A stretch of DNA of 64,000 nt from Antedon mediterranea (taxonomy: Eukaryota; Echinodermata; Crinoidea; Comatulida; Antedonidae): the NCBI RefSeq assembly GCF_964355755.1, contig NC_092673.1:31377001-31441000 (forward strand). The letters run 5' to 3'. The notes below the pieces were generated by a model. The model did no database searches, was not told the DNA's origin, and saw only the letters and a list, made by a program, of their open reading frames with translations. The position numbers and the translations under genes were made by a program. Shown piece by piece: positions 19,404 through 59,325 of the stretch. How positions within the stretch are numbered: the first letter of the stretch is position 1; each line of letters starts with the position of its first letter.

Positions 19404-22400
19404 ATGGGGTCATCCGCATCAAAAAAGAAAAGCCGCTCGATGGTCAAGATTAGGTAAGTACATTTTTAGCCTTTTTTTTTCAATTATTTATCGAATATCA
19501 CTCGAATAACTAACTTGGTAAATAATGTGAATTGGCTTATTGGTCAGTCGATAGCCCTTATGGGTTTCAATTAAACATGTTTTGGTTAGCTATAATATCT
19601 CCATGGTATGCCTACGGTTGAAGAAGCGGCTTGAAGTTGAATAACTGTGCACTTGTGTTGCCTTGGAAAAACATCACGAAGTATTATTTATATAAGCCTA
19701 AGATTTAAACAATTTAAATTTTAAGAAATGCTTAATCTTAATCAATTAAGCCTGCTCTATTAATATCAAAGTTTGAAATATTTTAATATCCTGCTTTTTT
19801 TTACATCATAAACAGTGCTGTCATTGCATTTGAAGAAGCAGGAGAGAGACATAACAAAAATAATGAAAAGCCCAAAGATGACGTCAAAAACAACCAAGGT
19901 ATGACATCATTGATCATATATAATACACTATTATGTAATCAGTAAGACCAGGGAAGAGTGTAATTTAACTCTTCCCTGGTAAGACAAAGTGGTTTATGCC
20001 TACTAGCCGTTAAGGTCACGTGTTTCAGATAAGGCATAATATGTAGTATTGACAAAGTAATAACATTAATTTTTTATTCTATATATCATTTTAAATTAAC
20101 GTGTTTATTTTAAAGAAAACGTAAGTCAGCCTGCAACATGTATGAACACAGTAGACGCTAATAAACAACCCCATGACAATAATGGAACAGTCCCACCCGC
20201 AAGGAAACCATCGGAAAAAGATGCGGCTGTTATGATACAGAGGTGAGACTGAGGTGTATAAAGGTCTAAACAAATCTCGACGTGTTGTAAAATGTATTTC
20301 AGTAATATCATTTTTTTTTTTTGGTTTACGCATCTCTATAAACTATTATATCTAACCTAATGATGTTTTACTGAAGTGCTGTGCCGCGCCGCGTCGAGTA
20401 CCAGATACATTTTGTTCTTAGAATACTCTGATATGTTAAATGTTATATTGAATGAACTACGTTATACTGTAACTAGAACACATTGTTCCATAACAGGAAC
20501 CGAATATTATGTCAAATAACATAATCTTTGTGATTCTTTGTTTTGATAAACAAATCGACTGAAGTAGTAAAATTAATATTTTATAACCATATTTATTAAA
20601 GAATAAATTATAATGTAATGGTCGGAGCTAAGTAACTTTAGCTTAATACAAATAATGTAAAATAGAGCCTGAAGCAGTTTGCATACAAGGACGCCCACTA
20701 AGGCAGAAAACTATCGAATTTAATCTAATTATCGTTTTGAATTAGTCTACCGACAGATATAACAAACACGAACAAATACTGCACCCTTCAACGTGAAAGC
20801 AATCATAATCGAATTGCTTATTTATGGTTACACAAATACAAAAAACGTAATAACAATATTACACACGAGATACAAATTATGTGGAGTGTCTAATCAATAT
20901 TATATCGGTAACCGATACAACGTTGCTAAGTAACTTTTAAAAAAAGACTCTTTGGTGAAATGTAACAAGGTATAAGGCTAGTTGTGGAGTAAACTCGTAA
21001 GCGCCTAACCACGATACGTGCTCGTCATGAGTAGTTCGAATATTAAAATGTCTTCATTTCTACAAACACGAACTAATTCCTCCGTATCGTCAGTTCGTAA
21101 TAGAGTGGCGATACCGGTTGGTATTCAACGATCGGCAACTGAAGGAACTTTACACCGATCTACGATGGTTCCGAAGAATTCCGTTCAACGGCCGTCAGCC
21201 GTCGTAGAACGGCAATCGGCGATGTGTAGGCCTACGGGTATGGTTCGAACTCGCACTGACTTTGAGTTTTATCTTAACAGAGTTTATCGAGGTCATCAGG
21301 AAAGAAGGCAGATGAAGAAAGAAAATGAAATGGCGGTTGTTATACAAAGGTAACATTACTTTTATATTTACAAAACAAACTCATACGAATTACTATAAAG
21401 CAACCTTTATGTTGAATAATTGTGTTGTAAAGTCAAGCCACTGGCTGGTTTACAACACAGGATTGAACAGATACCAACAATCTATCTAGTTTGAAAATTG
21501 AAGAGTAGTTTCAATTAATCCTAATACAATTCTCCGCACGAAAAATGTATAGAAATTCATAATTCATTATGAACGTTATTCCTTACAAACAGAAGCCTAG
21601 TACCTTGTGTCTAGGCAACCTCACTAACTAAGTGGTATTTGTTAATATTCATATACACCTCAGTAACGTTTCTTATACAGTAGACCCTATTATTAGAAAT
21701 GGCCAATGCTAAGGTTTATCTTTATTAAAACAAAAACACAATGGTTTATTATAGACTATATATAAGCATATATGAATGCATATATTTAAAAAAAATGAAT
21801 AAAATTATATAAATTTATTCGCATTTAAACTAATATAAAACATCCAACAGTCGAGTATTGTTGTATTAGGCCTAGATGACACCAAGTCTGGTAAAAAGCA
21901 TATTAAAAGATAAAAATGAGTGATGCAGAATTTGGTCTAACTCAAGACGACGAGTAAGTGGTTTAATTGTTATGATGCCCGGTGCCACCCGGTCAGTCTA
22001 TAGGGAAACGAGGGGTGGGTTAAGAGAAAAACTGAAATTGTAGGCATACGTTCCAAAAGGAGGTCTAATATCATACATGGAGTTACGACGGAAGGACTAG
22101 AACAGTGATATGCTGTCTCATTCTCTATCTGGGAAAATCACTATTTTAGAACTTGTTTATTTTGTATAAATTGTATTCAATACAATTTATTTCAGTGAAA
22201 TTCTGTTTTATTGTAGGCGGTATCGACGCCATATTTCAACGTCAGAAAAACCAGCAGAAAAAACTGAAGAAGATAAAAAGAAAGGTAAAGATACAATATT
22301 GTATTCAGTGTTGCCACTATCGTATTAAAACCATATCATTAAAAGTATTTCATATTTTACCATGTATAACAAAAAGAAGAATAGATGTTTATTTTTCCTG

Positions 22401-24886
22401 TTATAGCTTTAGAAGAAAGACGCGGGAAAAGGAAGGACCGAGATCGGGCATGGAAGGATAAGAAGAAAGTAGAAGTAAAGAAGGTAGCCGAAGTTCAAAT
22501 CAGTAAGTACAAGATATGAGTTTACTCAAAATGATAATGCATAAGTAGGAGTTTCTAAAAGGAGATTGACAAGCTGGCCATTCGACTTTATACGAGGCTG
22601 CATTCTTGGCAATAAACAATTGTATATGTAAGAAATTTGAATAGAAGAGTATAATCTAACAGTATAAAACGCTCGAGTAAATTTACAACTAATTCTCACT
22701 GATTATAAAAAAAAAAAAACTAAAAACCCCAGCGTCGTACAACCATGCCTGGTACAAGTGGTCTCGTCGGGAGAAAATTAATGTTTAAAGTTCTTCTGAC
22801 GACCTAAAAACTACGCATGACACTATCTCGTCTCGTCAGGTTTCAACTCAGACAGCTCCGACGACAGCACGTATAATGTTGTCTTAGTTGGCCTAAAGTA
22901 TACTGAAGCTTAATATAAGTTTTTACCCATTTTAGGTGATCAGGTACAACACGAGTTGCATTGTTTTCAAGATGAAATAGTTGAGTTAAAATGGAACGCA
23001 GATCAACAACTAGAAAAGAACTTTATGTTAGACACAGAACCTGCTAGAATAGTTGTAAGTAATTGTCATGTTTACTTTATTTGTTTATATTTTGCCAAAG
23101 TATTCAGGTTTTATGTTATTTAGTCAAATTATGAAGAATTAATCAACATGTTTTTTCGTATTTTTCTATTTTTAGTTTATATCTTCCAAGATTGGAAAAC
23201 CGGAACTATTGGCCGATGCCGTGCTTGATAAACCAAATGTTATAACAATTGCATATGTTAGTACCAATCATTATTATGTTCTTTGGTAACTTCTGGCGAA
23301 TAAGTGGAAAGATATTTTTGACATAAATTGTATATTTCATACATCTTTGTAATTCTTTAGATGTTAAAAAAAAACAGTTTATTGTCTCAAAACGACAATA
23401 AACAAATTTCGATGTTAATGGATTTGCAATCTATGACTTTGGTTACAGTGATATCCTATTTTAAAATGTTTATTTACAGGATTTTGAGAAAGATACATTT
23501 GAAGATCTAATTGGTAAATATGTCTTTATCTTTAATAATATATTAATTGTTTATTTACCTACGATGTTACCAATATATAAATGTAGTCCTAATTGTTTTC
23601 AACAAATGTTTCGTCAAATGACGCCAATCAATGTTGCACGATCAAAGTAATTAGTAACAATCATCTAGGAATAAAAATGCATGCCCTTTTATTATTTTCT
23701 TTTTACTTATACATTACAGATAGGATGAGGTCAAAGTTGAACGAATACAAGAAGGGATGTAGGGCTCAGTCGGTATGTCTCTACTGTCAAGGTGGACCAG
23801 GGTTCTTATATGTAGTTAAAAGAAAGGTTCTAACTGCTGTAAAGCTGAAGAAACCAAGCGAAAAGGATCAACGACAGTGAGTATTTGTGACGTCACAGTA
23901 ATACGCGCGCGTTAAAATGTTGATAATAATTGTACAGATGATGTACGCGTGCGTCAAGTTAATGTCTATTCATGGTATCGTTGACAAGTTGATGATGACA
24001 TGTTTCACAAGTTTTGGAGCCCAATCAACGTTGAATTTACTTTAAAGTTAGCCAACCGAAAATCAATCGTCCTTGCTGAATTTCAGTAATTTCTGTTACA
24101 TAATACGAAAACTTTAAAATTATATTTATCATAATTTGAGGGAAGACTAGAAATCTCTTCATTTGTAAGAACCCATTCTAGATTTCCGAATTTCACCAAT
24201 ACGATTTTTTCACATGATTATATTTCAAAGGTTTTGGACGTCGGTGGGTGATATGATGTCAAAGGTCAATCCTGATAATACAATAGTACACGTAATGGGA
24301 TCTAATATACTGGGAAGTGAAAATGGACAGCAGGTAAGTTATAAAAAAATACTGCCTCACACAGTAACCATTATAAATTACTCAGATTAAATTATCAACT
24401 TAGTTATGTAAAAAAAAAGAACCAACAATATGATGTACCATTCATATTAAAGAAATCTTATTAATTAATCTTTAATTATTATCTACATTTTCTTTTAGTT
24501 ATTTGATGACATCAGTACCCTGATGAAACCGAATAAAGTAACCTTCAAATCTCCTCTAGAACTTTCAGAAGAAGGTAATTTAAATTAATTGTTAAATGAT
24601 AAAGAATCTACAAAAAAATACAGTTAGGCATGCGCCCTAACGCTGCTAAAACTATCAGGATTTTGTGGTTATTCGAGGAGCCATTGCCGACAAAATTGAA
24701 TTTTATTTCCTCTATTCTATATGCCTAAAACTAACTTTATCAAACAATTTTTATTTATCACATTTTACAGCAAAGGCAATGATCGACATCTACTTCAATC
24801 ATGAAAAATACAAAGACTGGAAATTACAGAGATATACGAAAGTCGATAACTCATTAATTAACACATTCAAAGAAAACACCGACTGA
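19404..24886 (+). CDS. IQ-motif protein with a DUF4347-like C-terminal domain (12 exons), function unknown
   Basis: Exons: 19404-19453, 19816-19898, 20116-20242, 22217-22284, 22407-22502, 22936-23054, 23176-23256, 23480-23513, 23720-23876, 24231-24333, 24499-24574, 24771-24886. All phases agree and give 1110 bases, 369 residues. Residues 1-6, MGSSAS, followed by KKKSR, fit an N-myristoylation signal with a basic stretch. After a polar linker an IQ motif (AAVMIQRRYRRH, about 81-92) suggests calmodulin or light-chain binding. A lysine/arginine-rich linker (about 95-140) leads to a compact domain from about residue 176: RIVFISSKIGKPELLAD, VITIAYDFE, VCLYCQGGPGFLYV, FWTSVGDMM, TIVHVMGSNILGSENGQQLF. 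The order and spacing resemble DUF4347, a domain known mostly from large bacterial surface proteins and thought to be caspase/gingipain-like. Where that family has SHG and GC, this protein has CQG (Gln243) and GS (Ser296), so it would lack a His/Cys dyad. The domain call is by eye from memory of the family. Confidence 0.75.
20116..20242 (+). CDS. Alternative coding exon A supplying the first half of the IQ motif
   Basis: Third exon of the myristoylated form. It is a polar, low-complexity linker that ends in EKDAAVMIQ plus two bases of an arginine codon, and is followed by a donor GTGAGA. The exon at 22217 completes the motif with RYRRH. The exon at 21027-21349 ends in the same phase with the same motif half, so one form should use this exon and the other form that one. 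Confidence 0.7.
21027..21349 (+). CDS. Alternative first coding exon B of the IQ-motif gene
   Basis: From ATG 21027 an open frame of 107 codons and two bases ends at AG/GTAACA. Its last residues, NEMAVVIQR, duplicate the half-motif at the end of exon 3 (DAAVMIQR) in the same phase, so it can splice to 22217 and give a 390-residue form. There is no convincing acceptor immediately before the ATG, which fits a separate promoter and transcription start. The peptide is rich in Ser, Arg, Thr and Val and has no MGxxxS start, so this form would not be myristoylated. A second in-frame ATG is at 21048. Confidence 0.6.
22725..22900. mobile_element. Decayed relative of the inverted-repeat element at 4728-4890
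   Basis: Shared words in the same order: CGTCGTAC, GGTCTCGTCGGGAGAAAATTA, GTTTAAAGTTCT, CGACGACCTAAAAACTACGC-like, then TTAGTTGGCCTAAAG at the right. It lies in the intron between exons 22407-22502 and 22936-23054. It is non-coding. Confidence 0.6.
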
Positions 24887-24979: not shown

Positions 24980-25370
24980 ATTTAAATACGTAGGCCTATA
25001 TTTAAAAAAATGTAACAATACTGTACAATATTTCAACAAGGTGTGAAATCTACGAAACAAAATTTGCATATCAAACAAGGATTAAAATGCTTTCATTGTG
25101 GAGGTACCTCAATGGTAAACTTACCACACAGTACCTTATTGATGGAATAATTAGTTAATAAAATATGCACAATATCTTAATATAGCGTTTGATAATTACA
25201 GAAAATAAATTATTAATAAGCCACCGGTGATCATAATGCAGTATAAAAATAAATATTATACATATGTTTAGGATTATATTATTAGAAGATTATAACTATG
25301 CAATAAGGAGTGTCTTCGGTGTTAACATTATTAAATACAACGTACTAATCTAAACTCGTCACTCTTAAGC

Positions 25371-25552
25371 GTGGTTCCCACTAGCGACGCAACACAAGGA
25401 CGCAACGCAACGCAAGTGAATTGACCAATCACAAGTGATGGCTTATTCGCTTGTGATTGCTAACTGTCTATAACTTGGCTTGTCATTGGTTAAAACGCTT
25501 GCGTTGCGTTTACGTCCTTGCGTTACGTTCTAGTGGGAACCAAGCTTTAATA
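25371..25552. mobile_element. MITE-like element with long terminal inverted repeats
   Basis: Left end GTGGTTCCCACTAGCGACGC and right end CGTTCTAGTGGGAACCAAGC are inverted copies; inward the arms continue as ACGCAACGCAA and TTGCGTTGCGT. The core TTGACCAATCACAAG pairs with CTTGTCATTGGTTAA. It is palindromic along most of its length and has no coding sequence. A decayed relative is at 1775-1925. Confidence 0.7.

Positions 25553-28542: not shown

Positions 28543-59325
<30,783 letters not shown>

Follow-up and report, generated by a model that had tools for sequence, protein, structure and literature searches.

What kind of protein does the gene at positions 19404-24886 of this stretch of Antedon mediterranea DNA encode, and how did a domain with bacterial relatives come to be part of it? 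We analysed the whole stretch of 64,000 nucleotides, hereafter the window. The gene is intact, animal and split by introns: on the plus strand, 12 exons join in phase into 1110 nt encoding 369 amino acids with zero internal stops, and 11 of 11 introns are GT-AG. The explanation that we favour, and consider rather probable, is that the product combines an IQ-like motif, a charged linker and an inactive, caspase-like C-terminal DUF4347 domain of a divergent bacterial subset, which we label FW-type, and that it would serve as a binding-module scaffold, possibly a ciliary one. The exons are as follows.

19404..19453, plus strand: exon 1, with the start ATG; protein N-terminus MGSSAS
19816..19898, plus strand: exon 2
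20116..20242, plus strand: exon 3; its 3' end is the first half of the IQ-like motif (AAVMIQ + AG)
22217..22284, plus strand: exon 4, second half of the IQ-like motif (RRYRRH)
22407..22502, plus strand: exon 5, Lys/Glu-rich charged linker
22936..23054, plus strand: exon 6, linker, then the first DUF4347 domain residues
23176..23256, plus strand: exon 7, DUF4347 domain (FISSKIG...)
23480..23513, plus strand: exon 8, DUF4347 domain
23720..23876, plus strand: exon 9, DUF4347 domain; Gln243 occupies the His column
24231..24333, plus strand: exon 10, DUF4347 domain; FW motif, and Ser296 occupies the Cys column
24499..24574, plus strand: exon 11, where the recognisable DUF4347 domain ends
24771..24886, plus strand: exon 12, C-terminal tail and stop

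The DUF4347 domain spans residues about 174-320, and its homology covers exons 6-11. PF14252 matches the product at residues 180-316 (E 7.1e-4, 19.8 bits), under its gathering cut-off of 24.6, and a generic bacterial DUF4347 profile gives the domain 13.3 bits, the best of 2000 shuffles reaching 8.9. With a profile of nine FW-type domains, made from bacterial rows only, residues 151-369 score 53.2 bits and the whole protein 51.4 bits (E 1.4e-13 with Z set to 25000), and none of 5000 shuffles exceeded 7.1 bits. Judged by these scores, membership of the DUF4347 superfamily is firm and the domain appears to be of the FW-type subfamily. In a PDB sequence search, the window domain alone returned four matches (best E 0.016), which we judged to be chance, as we did those obtained by protein among plasmids (3 records, best E 5) and phages (11 records, best E 0.4); viral contigs yielded five candidate stretches, with no relative among them.

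The window protein lacks the His/Cys dyad of clan CD. It was aligned with 79 bacterial rows, which came from 80 loci kept of 378 confirmed relatives found by a consensus scan; one locus, L072, was removed for an in-frame stop. The His column (position 243) holds Gln in the window protein, compared with His in 77/79 bacterial rows and Phe in 2/79, and the Cys column (position 296) holds Ser, compared with Cys in 79/79. Cys242 adjoins Gln243. Among bacterial FW-type rows, His and Cys are both kept in 10 of 11 distinct rows (partly by eye). The substitutions suggest that the window domain no longer cuts proteins. One bacterial FW-type DUF4347, L120, has Tyr and Ser where His and Cys stand elsewhere.

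The fold of the family was modelled on the bacterial sequence L007 with the alignment of 79 rows (predicted local distance difference test score, pLDDT, 90.5). Tce1 is the best fold match of this model (Z 13.5), with the SAVED-CHAT filament at Z 10.0 and caspase-3 at Z 8.3; TPR-CHAT and legumain also match, the latter at Z 7.7, in a range (under 8) that, as the fold-comparison tool warns, possibly reflects just a common arrangement. Foldseek likewise placed Tce1 at the top, then almost solely caspases among the 50 rows listed. A caspase-like fold for the DUF4347 family is supported by these comparisons of a model. Tce1 (PA0256, PDB 9qpe chain G) is a solved DUF4347 structure and shares its domain family with the window protein; it is described as a type VI secretion cargo whose His186 and Cys240 coincide with the dyad of a known protease (PMC13323088), whereas the window protein is without the dyad. 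Pseudo-orthocaspases resemble the window protein in having a caspase fold with the dyad replaced, in their case by Tyr and Ser, but they are bacterial, carry a p20 domain and belong to a different family (PMC6426788). Of what a sequence-only reading of this locus had claimed, the reality of the gene by its structure, the DUF4347 nature of its C-terminal half, the placing of the dyad positions at Gln243 and Ser296 and a caspase-like fold for the family all agree with the exon structure, the nine-row profile (the Pfam model being under cut-off), the 79-row alignment and the L007 model, respectively; the profile search that it had named as a refuting test found a match, and the claim stands.

The nearest animal relative found here for the window domain is, by sequence comparison, the DUF4347 domain of ECT2L. 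A PDB profile search returned ECT2L in entry 11xu (chain A1) at E 0.022, with designed proteins nearby at 0.028, and the match was accepted because two ECT2L domains, from the PDB chain and from an ECT2L-like gene in the same A. mediterranea genome (on C7, near G000:C7:3068474-3069028), both pass the PF14252 cut-off (41.2 and 44.2 bits) and match each other (E 2e-29). A later ECT2L match at E 1.6e-36 was set aside as circular, the profile already containing ECT2L. The window domain matches the own-genome ECT2L-like domain at 29% identity (E 3e-16). Like the window protein, ECT2L carries an FW-type DUF4347 domain without the His/Cys pair: the PDB and own-genome sequences both show Asp at the His position and a gap at that of Cys, and the animal members seen thus seem to have been released from catalysis. 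A DUF4347 domain in an animal is therefore already known, from ECT2L and from an annotated snail protein, and the sequence-only suggestion that a pseudo-protease-like domain would be a novelty among animals is not supported.

Outside the domain, the two animal proteins differ. The ECT2L chain in the PDB has 904 amino acids and the window product 369. ECT2L combines F-box and RhoGEF domains, and the own-genome ECT2L-like gene has, by eye, an F-box-like stretch ahead of its DUF4347 domain; neither F-box nor RhoGEF families are among the Pfam hits of the window product at E up to 10. Zebrafish ect2l is termed a putative exchange factor in PMC4199137. Other eukaryotic proteins can be likened to the window protein by annotation alone: a 24.7-kDa snail DUF4347 protein among excreted-secreted proteins (PMC6744689) and a DUF4347-annotated protein of a green alga (PMC10451321). 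The DUF4347 literature found, as far as its text was available, describes no IQ-DUF4347 protein, and a literature search combining ECT2L with caspase-like terms gave no ECT2L among the matches listed.

Bacterial relatives were sought in Planctomycetota (phylum 1, via L052, Neorhodopirellula, G007), Pseudomonadota (phylum 2, via L009, Oceanospirillum, G002) and Cyanobacteriota (phylum 3, via L007, Pantanalinema, G001). With the ECT2L domain as query, 5 of 294 planctomycetotal genomes matched at E 0.01, the best being L086 (36%, E 1.6e-13); two of the five matches, L089 and L090, were dropped, as they matched neither the FW-type nor the generic profile. A seven-row profile (three animal rows, L086 twice, L087 and L088) matched 17 of 392 planctomycetotal genomes at E 1e-6, and in six of these 17 a domain scores better with this profile than with the generic one; three of these six had themselves supplied rows of the profile. 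At E 1e-22, the same profile matched 4 of 398 genomes of Pseudomonadota, all four FW-type, and 3 of 292 of Cyanobacteriota, none of them FW-type (the generic profile scores higher in 3/3); cut-offs differ between phyla, and the counts are not comparable as rates. The bacterial FW-type rows are L086-L088, L119-L121, L133 and L140-L143. The nine FW-type rows used as a profile are themselves matched by the generic DUF4347 profile, at 53.7 to 78.5 bits. Bacterial FW-type domains have their domain sequence in common with the window protein, as the nine-row profile indicates, but sit in open frames that are between 650 and 2980 codons long rather than in a 369-residue product. By eye, L086, L087 and L088 show a LEERIVLDA-like N-terminal stretch followed by the FW-type domain in long open frames.

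Two trees were computed, one of 50 rows of our choosing and one of 31 rows including four more FW-type rows. In tree 1, the window domain and ECT2L group at 97/62, inside a 10-row FW-type group (100/98); in tree 2, they group at 96/92, and a branch at 99/95 separates the 14 FW-type and animal rows from the others. When the window row is left out, ECT2L remains with FW-type rows (13 rows, 100/98). A sister relationship between the window and ECT2L domains is plausible from these alignments, and a transfer, if it happened, may be one shared with ECT2L; its direction is what we infer.

PF00612 (IQ) matches the product at E 0.057 (13.7 bits, under the cut-off of 20.3) and IQ_SCN5A_C matches the 369-residue form at E 0.058. 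An alternative start would contribute the same half of the motif, spliced to the same acceptor at 22217, and would give a predicted product of 390 amino acids, for which IQ_SCN5A_C reaches E 0.0025 (17.8 bits, cut-off 27.7).

21027..21349, plus strand: candidate alternative first coding exon; 3' end MAVVIQ + AG, in phase with acceptor 22217
20922..20934, no strand: X-box-like palindrome GTTGCTAAGTAAC, 92 bases 5' of the ATG at 21027; candidate RFX site

The match is weak and incomplete, and the motif is best called IQ-like; of the IQ motif read earlier from the sequence, a weak match is present, under the Pfam cut-offs. The strict X-box pattern, chosen afterwards, occurs at three places in the 64-kb window, compared with a mean of 0.8 and a maximum of 3 across 100 Markov resamplings. 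The MGSSAS N-terminus of the first form would match the N-myristoylation pattern.

On the explanation that we favour, the DUF4347 domain would have lost catalysis and would act as a binding module, the IQ-like helix might recruit calmodulin or a related light chain, and the product, by analogy with ECT2L, could be a scaffold, possibly in motile cilia. Zebrafish ect2l is described, in PMC4199137, as a motile-cilia gene whose knockdown gives shorter kidney cilia. A radial-spoke gene is present in the A. mediterranea genome, and motile cilia are therefore likely; the four radial-spoke rows do not include PDB entry 11xu. Zebrafish ect2l, the X-box-like site and the radial-spoke gene are hints of cilia and no more.

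Several points weigh against this explanation. A domain in common with ECT2L does not make the window protein ciliary. The caspase-like fold was modelled for bacterial L007, not for the window protein, the IQ matches all fall under Pfam cut-offs, and the X-box-like site has two more like it in the window, a total that resampled sequence also reached. The link to ECT2L passes through the own-genome ECT2L-like domain and bacterial rows: compared directly with the PDB ECT2L piece, the window domain shows just 21% identity (E 6e-4), and alone it does not match ECT2L in the PDB at E up to 10. In the trees, the window row has a very long branch and odd composition, and the bootstrap of tree 2 is unsettled. 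Approximately unbiased (AU) tests on the 50-row set, with groups named after the tree was seen, failed to reject three other arrangements: ECT2L paired with L119 (p 0.46), a window row placed outside the FW-type (p 0.28) and a window row that joins the bacterial FW-type rows minus ECT2L (p 0.58); the last placement has a log-likelihood 3.6 above that of the free tree, which missed it.

These tests bear on a rival in which the window domain came from a bacterium by a separate transfer, confined to this lineage and having nothing to do with the ECT2L domain; we consider it unlikely. It would draw on the unrejected placements, on a match to bacterial L086 (27% identity, E 1e-15) nearly equal to that with ECT2L, and on intron positions that, by eye, are unlike those of the ECT2L-like gene; yet the window domain groups with ECT2L in both trees, and a recent transfer in particular is disfavoured by the 12 exons and by 27% identity in the sole bacterial pair compared directly. 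The earlier proposal of transfer followed by domestication keeps its footing in so far as the trees place the animal rows in the midst of bacterial FW-type rows, although the AU tests leave other placements unrejected. A fuller history, in which an animal ancestor took an FW-type caspase-like domain from bacteria, catalysis was lost, the domain spread to at least two ciliary scaffolds (ECT2L and the IQ-bearing protein) and calcium sensing via the IQ helix controls what the dead fold binds, is unlikely when taken whole.

The remaining rivals concern what the protein does. A role in defence or cell death, with the dead caspase-like fold as decoy or regulator, is improbable: the fold of the bacterial model is common to SAVED-CHAT, TPR-CHAT and caspases, but the product has no death, TIR or NACHT domain among its Pfam hits and ECT2L, its nearest animal relative, is tied to cilia. 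That the domain is still an enzyme with an altered active site, using Ser296 as nucleophile or the neighbouring Cys242, seems very improbable. The Ser stands exactly in the former Cys place, with Cys242 next to Gln243, but the His is lost too, and the ECT2L domains show no pair either. We give least credence, and very little indeed, to an erroneous gene model or to decay of the gene: frame and splice sites are the only evidence for the 5' exons, whereas 12 exons in phase without stops and domain homology across exons 6-11 argue for the model. If the binding-scaffold explanation is true, it would show that animals received a caspase-like domain of bacterial origin, which ceased to work as an enzyme but persisted as a structural component of at least two genes, possibly ciliary ones. 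Attention is also drawn to the DUF4347 domain of ECT2L, a protein absent from the titles of the papers listed among those that have named it since 2015.

One copy of the gene was found in the 354-Mb genome. A search of the genome gave no second copy of the DUF4347-like domain, the linker or the alternative first exon (exons 1-3 were not searched). Two weak paralogue candidates were rejected: the stretch on C10 reads by eye as a retrotransposon, and C3 has no minus-strand open frame of at least 70 codons at the match position. Also by eye, L084, an open frame of 410 codons, looks retrotransposon-like. A PF14252 scan of the genome gave zero matches, likewise in controls, short exons making such a scan uninformative.

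Elsewhere in the window, 20 open frames, selected from among the longest of the 346 with at least 50 codons, were scanned, and six of them, at 37482-51375 on the minus strand, match spectrin repeats, five above cut-off; a spectrin gene therefore lies downstream on the opposite strand. The other strict X-box-like palindromes, at 47367 and 49818, fall within the span of these matches. Just 3' of the DUF4347 gene, an inverted repeat seen by eye at 25370-25548 (GTTCCCACTAG ... CTAGTGGGAAC) resembles a small terminal-inverted-repeat element. Across the whole window, TAGGCCTA occurs 20 times, compared with 0.62 expected from base content alone.

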